Below are positions 4,243 to 17,335 of a stretch of DNA of 37,546 nucleotides, piece by piece. The translations under genes and the position numbers were made by a program. Under the pieces are notes generated by a model. It saw nothing but the letters and a program-made list of their open reading frames with translations, was not told the DNA's origin and did no database searches. Every line of letters starts with the position of its first letter. The first letter of the stretch is position 1. Where the stretch lies: NCBI GenBank assembly GCA_025057345.1, contig JANWXX010000002.1:1-37546 (forward strand). The letters are read 5' to 3'. Source of the DNA: Polyangiaceae bacterium. Lineage in GTDB: Bacteria > Myxococcota_A > Polyangia > Polyangiales > Polyangiaceae.

Positions 4243-4258
4243 AGACTTCAGGAAGTCT
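4243..4258. repeat. Perfect 7-bp inverted repeat at the birA stop
   Basis: AGACTTC and GAAGTCT flank a 2-nt centre and overlap the birA TGA. With a 4-nt loop it would form a 6-bp hairpin, but no T-run follows on either strand. It could be a weak transcription pause or chance. Confidence 0.3.
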
Positions 4259-5042
4259 GTTCCGTTACAAAAGTCACTTCCCCTGCTGAGGCAGCTATCA
4301 TCCCTCCAGGTGCGCGCAACAGCAGGCGCCCCTCCTCGTCGATCCCGCAGGCCACTGTGGATTGCCCTTGCCAGAGAACCTTTCTTCCTGCGGCTCCGTC
4401 GGCAGTACGCAGAGCACCTAGCATCGGGGCAAGGCCATGGCGCACGTATGTATCAATCCTTTGCTGGAGTGAGGCCAGGATCTGGCCAAGGAGGACCGTA
4501 CGGTCGAGAGGTGCTCCGACGATGGCATGGCGCTGGAGAGAGGTCGCTTGGTGCGCAATCTCAGGGGGAAGAGGGGCATCCCTCAGGTTGATCCCGAAGC
4601 CAATCACGATGGATTCTAGATGGGAACCACGGAGGGAGGCTTCCACGAGAATCCCGGCGAGTTTGCGATCCTGGAGGATGAGGTCATTGGGCCATTTGAT
4701 ACGCAGGACTGCGCCAGCGACCCAAGGGGCGAGGGTATCGTAAAGAGCCAGCCCCGTGACCAGAGAGAGAGGCGGGAGCTGGGCAGCCAGCAAAGGAGGG
4801 CGAAGGAGCACAGAAGCCAGGAGGGCAGAGCCAGGAGGGGCCACCCAGGAACGCCCCTGTCGTCCCCGACCCTGGGTCTGGCTATCTGCGACGAAGGTGG
4901 TGCCTTCCGGCGCGCCGGAGGAGGCTGCCTGGCGCGCGAGATCCTGAGTGGAGGAGGTGGAGGTGATGTGATGGACGGTACCAGGCCAAGAGCACCCCGC
5001 AGCGCGAGCGAGGCAAGTTGCTTTCTGCGGGTCAAAGCTCAT
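4248..5042 (-). CDS. birA: Biotin--[biotin carboxyl carrier protein] ligase, catalytic type without HTH
   Basis: Activates biotin with ATP and transfers it to the lysine of biotin carboxyl carrier proteins. The 264 residues contain the adenylate-binding loop GRGRQGRSW (about residues 58-66), the catalytic block KWPNDLIL followed by KLAGILVE, and GFGINLRD. The C-terminal small domain follows (ending GEVTFVTEQTS). There is no N-terminal winged-helix DNA-binding domain, so this is a group I ligase and not a biotin-operon repressor. The start codon overlaps the nadC stop as ATGA (5039-5042), so nadC and birA are translated from one transcript. A small unknown ORF follows downstream. Confidence 0.94.
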   Translation of the reverse strand: MSFDPQKATCLARAAGCSWPGTVHHITSTSSTQDLARQAASSGAPEGTTFVADSQTQGRGRQGRSWVAPPGSALLASVLLRPPLLAAQLPPLSLVTGLALYDTLAPWVAGAVLRIKWPNDLILQDRKLAGILVEASLRGSHLESIVIGFGINLRDAPLPPEIAHQATSLQRHAIVGAPLDRTVLLGQILASLQQRIDTYVRHGLAPMLGALRTADGAAGRKVLWQGQSTVACGIDEEGRLLLRAPGGMIAASAGEVTFVTEQTS

Positions 5043-5887
5043 GGAAGCAAGGCCAGATCGAGGGCAATATCTGCGGCGGGAGCCGAGTGGGTCAACGCAC
5101 CGACGCTAATGACGTCAACACCGGCGGCAGCGAAGGCGGGGAGGGTAGCGAGAGTGACGCCGCCAGAGGCTTCCAAGATGGCTTTGCCCCGGGCACGGCG
5201 TACTGCCTCAGCAACGTATTCCGGGGAGAAATTGTCAAGCATGATGATGTCTGCATTCGCAGCGAGGGCCTGCTCTAGCTGCTCAAGGCTGGCAACCTCG
5301 ACCTCGATGCGGCTGGTATGGGGGGCATGACGGCGAGCTCTCTCCACTGCAGCGAGGATGCCTCCGGCCGCCGTGATATGGTTATCCTTGATCATGACAG
5401 CAGCTCCGAGACTGTCGCGGTGGTTGAAGGCGCCACCGCAACGAACTGCATACCGTTCCAGGACGCGGAGACCTGGGGTGGTTTTCCTGGTATCGGTGAT
5501 GCGGGTGGCACAACCGGGTGGGAGTGCTTCCACGTAGGTGCGAGCCAGGGTAGCGATACCGCTCATCCTTTGGGTCAGGTTAAGAGCACTACGTTCGCCC
5601 ATCAGGATGGCCCTGGCGCTGCCCTGTACCCTCCAGATCATCGTACCGCACCCAACCTTTGTTCCATCGTCCACCAGGGATTCAAAGACCACGGAAGGTT
5701 CCAGACGCTCGAACACCCGTTGGAAGACATCGCCTCCGCAGACCACGAGAGGAGCTCGAGCAACGGCGGTACCTGTAGCGAGGACATGGGCGGGGACGGT
5801 GGACTCCGCGGACAAGTCGCCTGCATGGAGATCCTCGCGGAGGGTTCGGTCGACGATCTCATCCAGCACAGGAGGAGCAATCCACAT
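5039..5887 (-). CDS. nadC: Nicotinate-nucleotide pyrophosphorylase (quinolinate phosphoribosyltransferase)
   Basis: Converts quinolinate and PRPP to nicotinate mononucleotide, CO2 and PPi in de novo NAD synthesis. At 282 residues it has the usual family length. Visible signatures are LREDLHAGDLSAE near the N-terminus, ERSALNLTQRMSGIAT, TRKTTPGLRVLERYAVRCGG with the substrate-binding Arg/Lys, FNHR, IKDNHI, IEVEV, IMLDNFSPE and the phosphate-binding end EASGGV ... ISVGALTHS. It is the first gene of the minus-strand nadC-birA unit and diverges from the radical SAM gene across 86 nt. nadA and nadB are not in the window. Confidence 0.96.
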   Translation of the reverse strand: MWIAPPVLDEIVDRTLREDLHAGDLSAESTVPAHVLATGTAVARAPLVVCGGDVFQRVFERLEPSVVFESLVDDGTKVGCGTMIWRVQGSARAILMGERSALNLTQRMSGIATLARTYVEALPPGCATRITDTRKTTPGLRVLERYAVRCGGAFNHRDSLGAAVMIKDNHITAAGGILAAVERARRHAPHTSRIEVEVASLEQLEQALAANADIIMLDNFSPEYVAEAVRRARGKAILEASGGVTLATLPAFAAAGVDVISVGALTHSAPAADIALDLALLP

Positions 5888-5973
5888 GCCCGGAGCTTAG
5901 AACCAAGGAGCCCGCCGAACCAAGGCAGAACCCTGACTTGCTCTTTGTCCTCCTCCACCACAAGCTTGTCCCG

Positions 5974-7413
5974 ATGCGTTACGAAGGCAAGCTTTACCGC
6001 CCACCGTCGGAGGCGGACGCTTACATCCTACAAGCTACTATTGGTTGCTCGTGGAATCACTGCACCTACTGCGATATGTACCGGGAGAAACGCTTCCGGA
6101 TACGAGATCTCAAAGAGTCGCTGGAGGACATCGACGAGGCCGGGCGCCGCTTTGGTCACTGCGTCAACAAGGTCTTTGTTGCCGATGGAGACGCACTGGT
6201 GATGCCCACCGATCATTGGCTCGCGATCCTAAGGCGTGTACGGGAGCGACTCCCCGGGACGCGGCGAGTCTCCTGCTATGCGATGGCGCGAAACGTACTG
6301 GAAAAAAGCGACACAGAGCTGCTTGCCCTGCGACAAGCGGGGCTCTCGCTGCTCTACATCGGCCCCGAGTCTGGTGATGCTGCGACCCTCAAACAGATTG
6401 CCAAAGGAGACGGGGTAGAGGAACACGTAGAGGCAGCAGCTAGGGCTCACGCTGCAGGAATGGCCATCAGTGTGATTGTACTCCTCGGGATAGGAGGAGA
6501 GCGGGCCGAGGAGCACGCTCGTGCCACAGCAGCACTCATCACCCGTATGGACCCGGAATTCTTCTCCGCGCTCACCGTGACCGTAGTCCCTGGAACCCCC
6601 CTCGCCACCTTGGAGAAACGGGGAAAATTTCGCGTCCCTGCCGTACCATCACTCCTTCGGGAACTGCGCATCATGGTGGAAGAGGCGCAGCCGACAGACG
6701 CCCTCTTTCGCACCAACCATGCTTCCAATTACCTACCGCTCGGGGGTCGCTTGCCCAGGGATCGAGGGAGGATCTGCAGCCTCATCGATGCAGCTCTTGC
6801 AGGACGAATTCCCCTTCGCCCCGAGTATGCCCGGGGGCTGTTAGATACTGGTGGTTGTGAGGATGCCACCCCTCCGGCTCAACGCAGAGGATTCTTGGCA
6901 AAGCGCTGGGCTAGCTCATCGAGGGCTTGCTGGAGCTGGGGCGAAGCGCCCTGGCGAGCCTGTTCGATGAGCTGGGGGGTACTCGGGTCATCGACCATGA
7001 GGAGAGCTGCAGTAGCGCTGCTACGAGGTTCACCGGGTCGAGCGACGAAGAGGTCGACGAGGGCCTTGGCAGCGAGAGCACGGATGGCAGCTTCCTCGCT
7101 CTTATGGGGGGTAGTAGGCATCTTCCATACCCAAGCGGAGCCAACCTCGCCGAGGGCTTTAGCGACGAAACGAGCGGTTTCATCATCGAGAGGACCGAAC
7201 ACTCCACGAGAGGCGTCGGCCAAGGTTTGGGCTGCGGAGAGGCGACGTGCTTCGCCAAGGCCAGCGAGAAGAGGACGCTGGCGAGGACCGGGTTGCTTGG
7301 CAAGAGCGATGAGTTTCTGGAGAGCGGTTTCATCACCCAGGCGACTAATGGCCTCAGAGGTGACACGAAGCACATCGAAATCGGTTTCGTCGGAGTCGAG
7401 GACAGCGAGGTAG
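5974..7413 (+). CDS. Radical SAM protein with CX4CX2C motif; stop codon apparently lost
   Basis: A radical SAM enzyme of unknown substrate, resembling an uncharacterised family whose members begin MRYEG-YRPPSEA. The ATG at 5974 matches that family start; a TTG at 5938 would add 12 residues. The cluster motif is GCSWNHCTYCDMY, with cysteines spaced CX4CX2C and not the usual CX3CX2C. SAM-binding elements follow (VFVADGDAL, LYIGPESGD, VIVLLGIGGE). The family-like part ends near RPEYARGL at about 6840, roughly 290 residues. The frame then stays open for about 190 more codons, antisense to the HEAT-like gene, with Arg/Ala/Ser-rich sequence of no protein character. Removing one T at 6841-6842 would give CTG TAG exactly at the expected end. 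The 5' part is a real gene; the 3' extension is probably an artefact of mutation or a sequencing error. Confidence 0.8.
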   Translation: MRYEGKLYRPPSEADAYILQATIGCSWNHCTYCDMYREKRFRIRDLKESLEDIDEAGRRFGHCVNKVFVADGDALVMPTDHWLAILRRVRERLPGTRRVSCYAMARNVLEKSDTELLALRQAGLSLLYIGPESGDAATLKQIAKGDGVEEHVEAAARAHAAGMAISVIVLLGIGGERAEEHARATAALITRMDPEFFSALTVTVVPGTPLATLEKRGKFRVPAVPSLLRELRIMVEEAQPTDALFRTNHASNYLPLGGRLPRDRGRICSLIDAALAGRIPLRPEYARGLLDTGGCEDATPPAQRRGFLAKRWASSSRACWSWGEAPWRACSMSWGVLGSSTMRRAAVALLRGSPGRATKRSTRALAARARMAASSLLWGVVGIFHTQAEPTSPRALATKRAVSSSRGPNTPREASAKVWAAERRRASPRPARRGRWRGPGCLARAMSFWRAVSSPRRLMASEVTRSTSKSVSSESRTAR

Positions 7414-7823
7414 AGGGGTAGGGAGCGGGCGTCCCGGATCATGCTGGACGCCTCGATCAGAGCGATGCGCCAGCCTCGCCATGCAGTATCGCTGAGGTTG
7501 CCGCGGGGGGGAGATTGGAGGGCAGCGCGTTCCAGCATGGGCAGCAGGGCCTTAGGGCCGAGGCGCTTGAGGAGCGGAGTGATGGGAGCGTAGCGACCGC
7601 GGCGGTTGGCATCGAGTTCGGCGAGGCGGTCAGCGATCTGCTCCACAGCGCGGAAGATTTCAGGGTTGGCCTTACGGGCCTTGGCCACATCTGCAGCGAG
7701 GCTGGCACGGGCGGCGGGGGGGAGCCTGCTGGCATGGACAACAGCCCCATGAGCGCGGGCTTCGTTAGCGGAGAGGCTCAGGAAAGCCATAGCGAGGAGG
7801 AAGGTCTTGAAAGGCGTATGCAT
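6879..7823 (-). CDS. Exported HEAT-like repeat protein
   Basis: A 314-residue protein with a clear signal peptide (MHTPFKTFLLAMAFLSLSANEARA, probable cleavage before HGAVV). The mature part is almost all alpha-helical repeats of HEAT type, with units such as ISRLGDETALQKLIALAK and VAKALGEVGSAW, as seen in scaffold or adaptor proteins. It has no visible catalytic motif. It follows the PAD-like gene by 15 nt, with AGGAG before the ATG, so the two are likely co-transcribed and both exported. Its 3' half is overlapped on the opposite strand by the run-on frame of the radical SAM gene. Its function is not known; a role as partner of the PAD-like protein is only inferred from position. Confidence 0.88.
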   Translation of the reverse strand: MHTPFKTFLLAMAFLSLSANEARAHGAVVHASRLPPAARASLAADVAKARKANPEIFRAVEQIADRLAELDANRRGRYAPITPLLKRLGPKALLPMLERAALQSPPRGNLSDTAWRGWRIALIEASSMIRDARSLPLYLAVLDSDETDFDVLRVTSEAISRLGDETALQKLIALAKQPGPRQRPLLAGLGEARRLSAAQTLADASRGVFGPLDDETARFVAKALGEVGSAWVWKMPTTPHKSEEAAIRALAAKALVDLFVARPGEPRSSATAALLMVDDPSTPQLIEQARQGASPQLQQALDELAQRFAKNPLR

Positions 7824-7838
7824 GAGTCTGCTCCTTAT

Positions 7839-9797
7839 TTAGTAACCGCTCTCCCACCACTTCTCGTCAGGCGAAACTTTGCGAATGGTGTTGGACCCAC
7901 AGTGGACCTCACCGGAGAGGCGGTGGTAGAGGTCCCAGTCCTCGATGTAGTGGACAGTGATACCGAGCTTGGCAAAGGCCTCGGTCATCTGAACCTCGAA
8001 GATATCCTTACCATCGATGACAGGACCGTGAGGCTTGGGAGCACCAAAATCCGTGTCAGAGAGGTAGATGCCGTTAACGGTACCAACCTGGTACGCAAGG
8101 GAATAACCGCTAACATTCTCGTGGAGGAACGGGAGACGGATGATTTCCTCATCGGTGATGCCGGTTTCCTTCTTGAGGATGGCGACTTGGTTGTCGACCT
8201 CGGCAGCGGAGGCAGCGCTCTCAGCCATGATATCGGTGTCTTCAAGTACATCCGCAATAGAGATCTCGGCGGGAATCTCGCCATTTCCTTGAGGATCGAG
8301 CCATTGCTTACCGACGAACATGGTGACGTCACCGTTGCCCTTGGCCACTTGCTCCTCAAGCATCTTCTTGGCCAGGGTGGGGTCATTGACAACCATGGCC
8401 CAGCCACGGGGGGTGTTGGCCTTAACAAAGGAGATGGTTTCGTCCACATGGGCCACAAGGAGCCAAGAGGTATCGACATAGACAGGGGGCTGAACCCGCT
8501 GGGCCTCCATCATCTTAGAGAATTTTTTGTCTGGGTAGAAGCTGGGGATGCTGCCGCGGAGAAGACGACCAAGGGGATAACTCTTATCCCCGAGGGTATA
8601 GGGAGGGATGGTTTCCGTGTTGCCAAAGGAGTCGAGGGTATCCATCGCATCAGGGTGCTTGATGTCGAATTCCTGGATGGCAGCGAAGTCCTTGCCGTGG
8701 AGGGTGTTGAAGACCACGCGACCGGCAGGGCGCAGAGGATTTTTAAGGCTGTTGGGGTTCTTGACGTTGGCTGAGCGATAGGCGACGCGAACCATGTGGG
8801 GGCCCTTGGGCGCCGGCATAACCATATAGCCAGTTTCGAAGTAATCCTGGGTCCACTGGTCGCTGTAGATGTTGGAGTTCTTCAGCTCGAGGACGCCCTG
8901 AGGCACGTTGGAGGCAGCGCTAGCCGTCTTGAGGTCAGCGCGCATGGCAGCAGAACCTGGATCGAACGTGATATTGGCGACGTAGACCCTCTCGGTGGGC
9001 TGAAGGTGGTGGTGCGTGAGGACCGGGGCTACCCGCATACGAACCCGATCCGGGGGAGCATCCTCGATGGGCTGATCCCCCTGGGTAATGGAGAAGTTGA
9101 GGTCGATGAAGCCATCCCAGACTTCCAAGTCCCGAACGATGTCGGTGGCTTCGATAGCTAGCTCGATGCCAGAGCGGATCTCTGCGGTAGAGAGGGTATC
9201 CGTGGCAGGGTGGAAGACGGTGAAGTTGCCAGATCCATCGTTTTTAAAGAGGCGGACGTAGCCGGCCCCCTTTTTGTCTACGGAGAGGCGGCCTACAGCG
9301 CCGTCAGGAGCATCTGCCCAGGGGGCAATACGCAACCGTGCCAAGTCGAGGAGATCGTCCTCACCGTTGATCACGTCATCGGCAGCGTCATGGCACTTGG
9401 GCAGATCGATGTCACTAGATTTGGCGTTGCACTTCTTTTCATCGTCGTCGAGGTTGGCCAGCAAGATGGCGCCGTGGGTTTTGTCCCAAGTGTCTTCGTC
9501 CTTGTCGTCCGCATCGTCATCCAAACGAACGACGCCGTCACGGTTGTTGTCGGCTCGCAGGTCCACCACGGGTTTTGGCTTGGGAGCCTCACCTCCAGTC
9601 CCCCCCTGCGCTTCCCCCGAAGCCCCCCCAGAACCTCCGGACCCGGAATCGCCTCCGCTCCCCCCGGAGCCGGCGGTTCCTCCGGAGGCAGGTAGGGTTG
9701 CCGGTTGGTTGTTGTCGTCCCCACACCCAGGGAAACCAAGCCCCCCTGTAGCTGCACAAATGAGGATTGCAGCCCACAACATCTTGTCGCGTCGCAT
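7839..9797 (-). CDS. Lipoprotein protein-arginine deiminase (PAD_M + PAD_C domains)
   Basis: A 652-residue homologue of calcium-dependent protein-arginine deiminases, which convert peptidyl-arginine to citrulline. A signal peptide ends at Cys25 (GFPGC, a poor but possible lipobox). A Gly/Ser-rich linker spans about residues 37-70. Residues about 79-125 match the PAD middle domain: ADNNRDGVV, then HGAILLANLDDD, rich in calcium-type Asp. The catalytic domain has WTQDYFETGY (Asp318), AHVDE (His450, Asp452) and GEVHCGSNTIR (Cys633), corresponding to Asp350, His471, Asp473 and Cys645 of human PAD4; even the terminal KWW is kept. The N-terminal cupredoxin-like PAD domain is absent, its place taken by the lipoprotein leader. 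The gene heads a unit with the exported HEAT-like protein. Activity and calcium dependence are inferred from residues. Confidence 0.93.
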   Translation of the reverse strand: MRRDKMLWAAILICAATGGLGFPGCGDDNNQPATLPASGGTAGSGGSGGDSGSGGSGGASGEAQGGTGGEAPKPKPVVDLRADNNRDGVVRLDDDADDKDEDTWDKTHGAILLANLDDDEKKCNAKSSDIDLPKCHDAADDVINGEDDLLDLARLRIAPWADAPDGAVGRLSVDKKGAGYVRLFKNDGSGNFTVFHPATDTLSTAEIRSGIELAIEATDIVRDLEVWDGFIDLNFSITQGDQPIEDAPPDRVRMRVAPVLTHHHLQPTERVYVANITFDPGSAAMRADLKTASAASNVPQGVLELKNSNIYSDQWTQDYFETGYMVMPAPKGPHMVRVAYRSANVKNPNSLKNPLRPAGRVVFNTLHGKDFAAIQEFDIKHPDAMDTLDSFGNTETIPPYTLGDKSYPLGRLLRGSIPSFYPDKKFSKMMEAQRVQPPVYVDTSWLLVAHVDETISFVKANTPRGWAMVVNDPTLAKKMLEEQVAKGNGDVTMFVGKQWLDPQGNGEIPAEISIADVLEDTDIMAESAASAAEVDNQVAILKKETGITDEEIIRLPFLHENVSGYSLAYQVGTVNGIYLSDTDFGAPKPHGPVIDGKDIFEVQMTEAFAKLGITVHYIEDWDLYHRLSGEVHCGSNTIRKVSPDEKWWESGY

Positions 9798-10085
9798 CGA
9801 AAAACCACCTGCTTGGAAGGGAAGGGAAGCCCGCTGCGTAGAGGGAGAACACCATGCGCCACGGGTCCTCTCAAGCTACCACGACCCAAAGGTTCGCCAA
9901 GGCTTCATCCGGTGACTTTCTTTTGCGCAGGGCGTCGTCTTGGTCCAAGCTTGCAGGTGACGTGAAAAAGTGCGCCAAGATCGACCAGGATTGCCGCCTG
10001 CAAGGGCTTGGAGTACGTGAGGGCGTCCGGGTCAAGACGACACGAGACGTGCGACACCCTGGCTCTCAGGGAGGAAGGCAAAGCG
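9798..10085. promoter_or_regulatory. Divergent intergenic region between the PAD gene and the DUF350 gene
   Basis: These 288 nt must hold the promoters for the minus-strand PAD unit and the plus-strand DUF350 operon. An AGGTGG ribosome-binding site precedes the PAD ATG, and GGGAGGAAGG precedes the DUF350 ATG. TTGCAGG (9951-9957) and CCTGCAA (9997-10003) form an inverted repeat with a 39-nt spacer that might be a regulator site. No convincing -35/-10 pair was found. Confidence 0.4.
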
Positions 10086-15881: not shown

Positions 15882-16126
15882 CAACCGGGGATCTTGGCTG
15901 CGGCAACAGGCCATAGCGGTGGCTCCCGCGAGTAGGGCCGAACCCCTAGAAGCAAGTACCCAGGATGCTGCTACATCCTACGAGGAACCCGAAGGGAGCC
16001 ATCTCAGGAACCAACCAAACGGCCCTGTTACTTCCACCGCCCCAGAACCACCATGATGGATTTCCTGTAGGTGGGTCAGGGGCCTTCCGGTTCCCGCGGA
16101 GGGGGGAGATCCGCTACGATGAGGCG

Positions 16127-17335
16127 ATGCGCAGGGTTGCGTTGTTCTTGCCTTGGGTTGCGCTTGGCCTAGGTGCTGCTGGAGTCTGGACGGTGGCCTG
16201 CTCTTCGGGAGGCACTTCCGCTACGGATCTTCCCCCCGGGGCCGGTGGGAAAGGGGGTTCTGGTGGCTCCGGAATCTCCGGACAGAGCGGGAGCGGCGCT
16301 CCAACCGGGGGCATGAGCGGCTCCGGTGGCTCCGAAGGTGACGCGGGGAGCAATGCCTTCGGCGGGAGTGCGGGCACTGTCTCCCTCGATGGGGGGAAGG
16401 ATGCACTGGAAGAAGGCTGTGCCGGCGTAGAGGCCCAGGCAACCCGGGTACCGCTGACGCTCTATGTTGTCTTGGATCGGTCCTCGTCGTCCAGCGGCCT
16501 CAAGTGGGATGCCTCCATCCAAGGACTGGGGGCTTTCCTCAAGGATCCAGCCTCCGCAGGGATCACAGTGGGTCTGGTGACTTTCCCCCGACAACCACTG
16601 CTCAACCCTCAGGAATGTAGCTTCAGCAATTACAAAGAGCCTCAGGTTCCTTTCGCGAAGCTACCCGAGAATGCCCAGCCCATCCTAGATTTCTTGGCGA
16701 CGGTGAAGCCCAATGGGTTTGGTACACCGATTTATCCTGCGCTTGGCGGGGCTTTGGAACGTGCTGCAGTTTCAAAGATGGCCAAACCGGAGGAGAACTT
16801 CGCGGTGCTATTGGTCACGGACGGTGAGCCAGCGCCTCCACCAACCACCTGCAACGGGGTTGATGTGCTCAAAATCGACAACAGCAGCGCTTTGGTTGCA
16901 GATACCCTCGTAAAGTATCAGGTGAAAACTTTCGTCATAGGACTGCCAGGCATCCCCGCCTCGTTTGCGGATGCGCTCGCGAAGAAGGGCGGCACCCAGG
17001 CCATCGTGATTCAGCAGGATGTAGACTTGGAGAAGCAGTTTCAGGGGGCGCTCTCTGCGGTGCTGGGAGAAGGACTCGGCTGCGAGTTTCCCCTGCCTCC
17101 TGACTCAAGCAAGTACGACAAAGATTTGGTCAATGTGAACTACACCAAGGGAGATGGCAGCGGCACCCTGGATCTCAAGCGATCCATGGGCTGCAAAGAC
17201 GGTAGCGGATGGGATTACGACAACGACATCAAGCCCACCAAGCTCGTGCTGTGCGGTACCACCTGCGAGCAAGTGAAGAAGGATGGGCTCGCCAAGATCA
17301 ACGTTGTACTTGGATGTCCGACCCGCATCCAGTGA
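16127..17335 (+). CDS. Lipoprotein with von Willebrand factor A domain
   Basis: A 402-residue putative lipoprotein. The signal peptide ends in VWTVACSS (Cys25 region, a weak lipobox), followed by about 60 residues of Gly/Ser-rich linker. The vWA domain begins at LTLYVVLDRSSSSSG, whose DxSxS (Asp117, Ser119, Ser121) is the metal-ion site, and continues with GITVGLVTFPRQ, FGTPIYPALGGAL (MIDAS Thr) and AVLLVTDGEP (MIDAS Asp). The C-terminal part has paired cysteines (MGCKDGSG, LCGTTCEQV) that could form disulfides outside the inner membrane. It likely binds a protein ligand by its metal site. The ATG at 16127 gives the signal peptide; a longer frame upstream is not protein-like. Its stop overlaps the start of the ABC ATPase gene. 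Confidence 0.9.
   Translation: MRRVALFLPWVALGLGAAGVWTVACSSGGTSATDLPPGAGGKGGSGGSGISGQSGSGAPTGGMSGSGGSEGDAGSNAFGGSAGTVSLDGGKDALEEGCAGVEAQATRVPLTLYVVLDRSSSSSGLKWDASIQGLGAFLKDPASAGITVGLVTFPRQPLLNPQECSFSNYKEPQVPFAKLPENAQPILDFLATVKPNGFGTPIYPALGGALERAAVSKMAKPEENFAVLLVTDGEPAPPPTTCNGVDVLKIDNSSALVADTLVKYQVKTFVIGLPGIPASFADALAKKGGTQAIVIQQDVDLEKQFQGALSAVLGEGLGCEFPLPPDSSKYDKDLVNVNYTKGDGSGTLDLKRSMGCKDGSGWDYDNDIKPTKLVLCGTTCEQVKKDGLAKINVVLGCPTRIQ

Follow-up and report, generated by a model that had tools for sequence, protein, structure and literature searches.

A PAD gene and the gene downstream of it

The window analysed here is a 37,546-nucleotide stretch from a Polyangiaceae bacterium and forms part of a 5.0 Mb draft genome. 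Its reverse strand carries a coding sequence for 652 amino acids plus a stop codon (7839-9797, (-)), which begins with an ATG at 9797 and is preceded by the Shine-Dalgarno sequence AGGTGG, read directly in the sequence (9805-9810, (-)). A first-pass annotation had described the product as a peptidylarginine deiminase (PAD) with a PAD_M calcium-binding middle domain, a full catalytic set (Asp318, His450/Asp452, and Cys633), and a lipoprotein signal, and all of these claims held up. Both Pfam models gave significant matches in the HMM check. The catalytic PAD model (PF03068) matched residues 250-649 (7851-9050, (-)) with 305 bits (cut-off 25, E 7e-91), while PAD_M matched residues 78-187 (9237-9566, (-)) with 25.7 bits (E 1e-5), barely exceeding its curated cut-off of 24.8. 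The same Pfam scan yielded neither a PAD_N nor a PPAD-type match in this protein. The assignment of the catalytic domain also has a whole-genome match behind it, and a phmmer search of the PDB matched the window PAD to human PADI1/2/3/4 with E-values from 1e-46 to 1e-40. Asp318, His450, Asp452, and Cys633 align with PADI2 D351, H471, D473, and C647, and this tetrad is invariant across 12 relatives. Compared with its nearest relative (73% identical), the gene has a dN/dS of ~0.18 and substitutions mostly at third codon positions, indicating purifying selection on a real gene rather than a chance reading frame. The AlphaFold2 model of the PAD was poor (mean pLDDT 56.5); a Foldseek search with this model nonetheless ranked PADs at the top (E 8.5e-30), at a TM score of only about 0.4. 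By its sequence, the product is a genuine peptidylarginine deiminase, a relative of the human enzymes that convert protein arginine to citrulline, and it is predicted to be catalytically active and calcium-dependent. Two other contexts for the gene were tried and rejected: a role in anti-phage defence, as the PADLOC search gave no match for the window PAD, and carriage by phages or viruses, as there was no match among the phages and viral contigs searched.

The first 25 residues constitute a predicted lipoprotein signal peptide (MRRDKMLWAAILICAATGGLGFPGC; 9723-9797, (-)) with the lipobox FPGC at residues 22-25, in which Cys25 is the predicted site of lipidation. A fixed lipobox rule passed by this protein was likewise passed by 84 of 127 PAD open frames; of the other long open frames at these loci, only 13 of 569 passed it, and several of the PAD frames failing the rule have an obvious lipobox by eye. 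No lipobox Cys was seen in three actinobacterial PADs. The signal is followed by a Gly/Ser-rich linker (residues 26-77; 9567-9722, (-)). The linker of the PAD is not special, as a similar Gly/Ser-rich one occurs in a second ORF of the window that resembles a lipoprotein gene (15965-17335, (+); start near 16127) and is followed immediately by two genes for oligopeptide-type ABC transporter ATPases. In lipoproteins of M. xanthus, Lys at position +2 signals the inner membrane and Ala at +7 the extracellular matrix (PMC3222651). The predicted mature N-terminus of the PAD, CGDDNNQ, has neither, and therefore the outer membrane is our default guess and the most likely location, by analogy across genera.

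Directly downstream, on the same strand, is a gene encoding a 314-residue protein (6879-7823, (-)). The 15-base gap between the PAD stop and the start of this gene (7824-7838, (-)) contains the Shine-Dalgarno sequence AAGGAG and no terminator-like site on the PAD/HEAT strand. Like the PAD gene, the downstream gene is under purifying selection, and its product carries a predicted Sec signal. The AlphaFold2 model is a confident, all-helical solenoid (pLDDT 89.8), and Foldseek linked it weakly to alphaRep (E about 4e-4); a profile search with the family ranked alphaRep HEAT-like structures first. The Pfam HEAT_2 model is found in 28 of 32 family members, although the window protein itself falls under the curated cut-off. 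Judged from its predicted structure and family profile, the product is of the HEAT-repeat type. Neither it nor the PAD receives a name from NCBIfam. Two features of the surrounding sequence should also be noted. A radical SAM ORF (5938-7413, (+)) overlaps the HEAT gene by >500 bases on the opposite strand; its Pfam match covers residues 34-192 only and its true end may be earlier, owing to a frameshift or an assembly error. Genes of the nicotinate-nucleotide pyrophosphorylase and biotin/lipoate ligase types (4248-5887) lie close to the PAD-HEAT pair of the window, and two Polyangium genomes (L036 and L038) have such genes in the vicinity of their own pair, in a different orientation.

Calcium sites and the class of the window PAD

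Cummings et al. (2021) distinguished two types of PAD (PMC8826395): those of animals and cyanobacteria have three domains, whereas those of fungi, Actinobacteria, and Proteobacteria have two, carry a triple-His linker, and lack calcium site 2. To place the window PAD, its residues were mapped onto PADI2, with the assignment of PADI2 residues to calcium sites taken from that study and from general knowledge of PAD2 structure papers. All of the PAD_M ligands could be mapped: PADI2 N154, D156, E158, D166, D169, D177, and D180 correspond to N, D, D, D, D, D, and D. The side chains of calcium site 1 (PADI2 Q350, E354, and E412) are likewise retained, whereas calcium site 2 is lost, with E352, D370, and S371 of PADI2 replaced by Y319, V338, and A339. 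Calcium control of the window PAD may therefore differ. A triple-His motif, which reads THHHLQ (His at residues 262-264; 9006-9014, (-)), is the mark of the two-domain fungal/actinobacterial class (PMC8826395). The calcium-switch residue departs from the published two-domain scheme, in which Asp389 is replaced by Gly in fungal and actinobacterial PADs (PMC8826395): the window protein retains an Asp (its D370), as do 38 of 49 PADs of the same myxobacterial group (group a, see below).

The first-pass annotation had also called the protein animal-type, with an N-terminal cupredoxin domain that had been replaced and KWW as its last residues, and it had proposed a tree with cyanobacterial and vertebrate PADs. 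These claims fared less well. The window PAD does share the catalytic tetrad, the PAD_M ligands, calcium site 1, the calcium-switch Asp389, and a KWW near the C-terminus with animal/cyanobacterial PADs (human PADI1-4 and PADI6), but the protein ends in KWWESGY, and it differs from them in its triple-His linker, loss of site 2, lack of PAD_N, lipoprotein export, and side of the tree. Since PAD_N is missing throughout the two-domain class, nothing was swapped out in this protein. In a FastTree phylogeny of about 126 sequences, which covered myxobacterial, actinobacterial, and human PADs, the window PAD fell together with most myxobacterial groups (a, b, and d) and the PADs of Streptomyces and Embleya, apart from human PADI1/2; the latter clustered with the remaining myxobacterial group, c (support 0.96). 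The proposed vertebrate kinship thus failed in the tree. Given THHHLQ, the absence of PAD_N and calcium site 2, and the position on the Streptomyces side, we conclude that motifs and tree rule out an animal-type PAD. Relative to the two-domain PADs (PMC8826395), with which it has in common PAD_M plus PAD_C without PAD_N, the triple-His linker, and the missing site 2, the window PAD adds the Asp389 equivalent, a lipoprotein signal, and an exported HEAT gene directly 3' of its own.

PAD groups and HEAT pairing across Myxococcota

PADs were found in 34 of 97 relatives and, across the phylum, in 94 of the 379 Myxococcota genomes sampled, or about a quarter. On the basis of their motifs, we assigned the PADs of myxobacteria to four groups: a (HHH-type, including the window PAD), b (PW..FGN linker and altered calcium site 1), c (intact calcium site 2 and an NHHLQ linker), and d (the mixed remainder); the labels are heuristic, but they agree well with the tree. 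In group c (L090, L087, L097, and about 36 other loci), calcium site 2 (E352, D370, and S371) is combined with an HH linker, even though this site has been described as exclusive to the animal/cyanobacterial clade (PMC8826395). Group b PADs (e.g. L063, L067, and L027) have calcium site 1 changed by E354Q, F408H, L411H, and E412D and have lost the equivalent of PADI2 R373, with an Arg at 374 instead; their metal or substrate preference may differ from that of other PADs. One draft genome (G041) encodes PADs of both group b and group c (L066 and L068), which runs against a published remark that both PAD types never share a species, although contamination or a binning error may explain it. Plasmid searches matched PADs only in Streptomyces and Embleya, where three related PADs (L042, L043, and L044) are encoded on large linear plasmids and have no HEAT gene next to them.

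Among catalytically intact Myxococcota PADs with enough downstream sequence, 114 of 119 have a HEAT gene directly downstream, a count that leaves out two degenerate PADs and is drawn mostly from interrelated draft genomes with start codons chosen by rule. For groups a, b, and d, the partner belongs to the same family as the window HEAT protein (family 1). Where 300 or more bases follow an intact PAD of these groups, a family-1 gene comes directly after it in 79 of 81 cases; in G012 and G053, which account for the other two, the HEAT gene is upstream of the PAD. The two genes most often overlap by 4 bases at the stop/start junction, as in 44 of the 79 pairs. Our first tally implied that the HEAT partner was confined to these three groups, a reading we dropped once a second exported HEAT family was found directly downstream of 35 of 38 group c PADs. 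The two families are distantly similar (hhalign probability 94-97), bearing in mind that HEAT repeats resemble one another generally. At four group c loci (L144, L145, L146, and L148), the HEAT partner itself seems to bear a lipobox Cys and thus may be lipidated too. Because the pairing occurs in both main PAD lineages, it may date back to the beginnings of the PAD family in Myxococcota.

The association also holds when viewed from the side of the HEAT protein. All 43 family-1 matches scoring >78 bits in the 97 relatives are in PAD genomes, with 41 sharing the contig of the PAD and the other two lying on broken contigs. In the phylum sample, family 1 is present in 56 of 94 PAD genomes vs 0 of 285 PAD-less genomes, barring three weak generic repeats (Fisher p about 6e-42, a test that ignores genome relatedness). 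PAD and HEAT distance matrices are correlated with r = 0.81, compared to a maximum of 0.28 in 1000 permutations, and where a genome has two cassettes, each HEAT protein tracks its own PAD type. No HEAT gene was present at L135 and L132, two PAD-like frames that have no catalytic residues. Our models also found no HEAT neighbour beside three actinobacterial PADs and, since these manage without one, HEAT is not required by every PAD. Within the open-access literature, we found no link between PADs and HEAT proteins in an operon, which is weak evidence of novelty; the pairing points to a previously undescribed two-part citrullination module.

A proposed envelope module and its alternatives

Starting from the gene pair, its near-universal occurrence among the PADs of the phylum, the intact catalytic residues and most of the calcium ligands, and the export signals on both proteins, we propose a two-gene envelope citrullination module composed of a tethered lipoprotein PAD and a dedicated exported HEAT partner, a reading that we regard as moderately probable. 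The PAD would be exported and lipidated on Cys25, with the flexible linker as its tether, most likely at the outer membrane, where envelope calcium would feed it. The HEAT protein would be cotranscribed with the PAD and, once exported, would reside on the same side of the membrane as the enzyme. HEAT solenoids are usually protein-binding, and for this reason the likeliest role of the partner would be substrate presentation or control of activity: the solenoid most likely binds the PAD and then presents substrates to it or gates it. However, gene linkage alone does not reveal whether the HEAT protein activates the PAD, serves it as an adaptor, inhibits it, or is its substrate. As targets of the PAD, the first-pass annotation had suggested proteins of prey, of neighbours, or of the cell's own surface, and the analysis turned up nothing in favour of any of them.

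An inhibitory role is unlikely in our estimation, even if it is the strongest of the competing explanations. The HEAT protein would then be a dedicated inhibitor that protects the cell's own envelope from a calcium-exposed PAD, perhaps in conjunction with lipoprotein delivery to neighbours in the manner of SitA/SitI. Orphan immunity genes are frequent in toxin systems, whereas no PAD-free family-1 HEAT genes were found in the sampled genomes. SitA toxins are myxobacterial outer-membrane lipoproteins whose immunity genes are located directly downstream (PMC5562445), and this gene order is matched by the PAD-HEAT pair, the partner of which is exported as well. However, SitA toxins act in the cytoplasm (PMC5562445), and the PAD-HEAT pair is not polymorphic but inherited as a unit, with a conserved catalytic PAD domain. 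Thus, none of the polymorphic toxin domain, cytoplasmic immunity protein, and orphan immunity genes that characterize SitAI was found for PAD-HEAT.

Less probable still is that the HEAT protein serves as the main substrate of the PAD, with citrullinated arginines switching the binding surface of the solenoid. Several of its arginines are well conserved (R75 and R248 at >90%, and R133, R193, and R194 at about 85%). Conserved arginines of helical repeats are commonly structural, however, and it also speaks against a substrate that different PAD groups are served by two only distantly similar HEAT families. We consider it highly improbable that the substrates of the PAD are small guanidino compounds, such as free arginine and agmatine, or nutrient peptides, with the HEAT pairing existing for some other purpose. 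The catalytic residues alone do not reveal substrate choice, and the R373 equivalent is the one lost in group b; yet the window PAD has W315 and R341 where PADI2 has W348 and R373, residues that in animal PADs touch the peptide substrate, and arginine-catabolism genes are absent from the neighbours scanned.

Returning to the envelope citrullination module, its broadest formulation is a phylum-wide myxobacterial extracytoplasmic system in which a lipoprotein PAD and an obligate exported HEAT solenoid, which would select targets or control activity, operate in the calcium-rich envelope; we consider the chances of this formulation to be about even. The PPAD of Porphyromonas gingivalis offers a likeness, being an extracytoplasmic bacterial enzyme that citrullinates proteins, and to our knowledge there is almost no known biology of bacterial protein citrullination outside Porphyromonas. 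PPAD itself belongs to a family phyletically distinct from PADs of the window type, and a 2021 survey recorded PADs in just 0.43% of proteobacterial species (PMC8826395). With a PAD in about a quarter of the sampled Myxococcota, nearly always together with an exported partner, this phylum provides a testable handle on bacterial citrullination. In addition, calcium features held to be exclusive to animal and cyanobacterial PADs occur in Myxococcota too and, given these shared features and the clustering of human PADs with one myxobacterial type, Myxococcota belong in the analysis of the origin of animal PADs.
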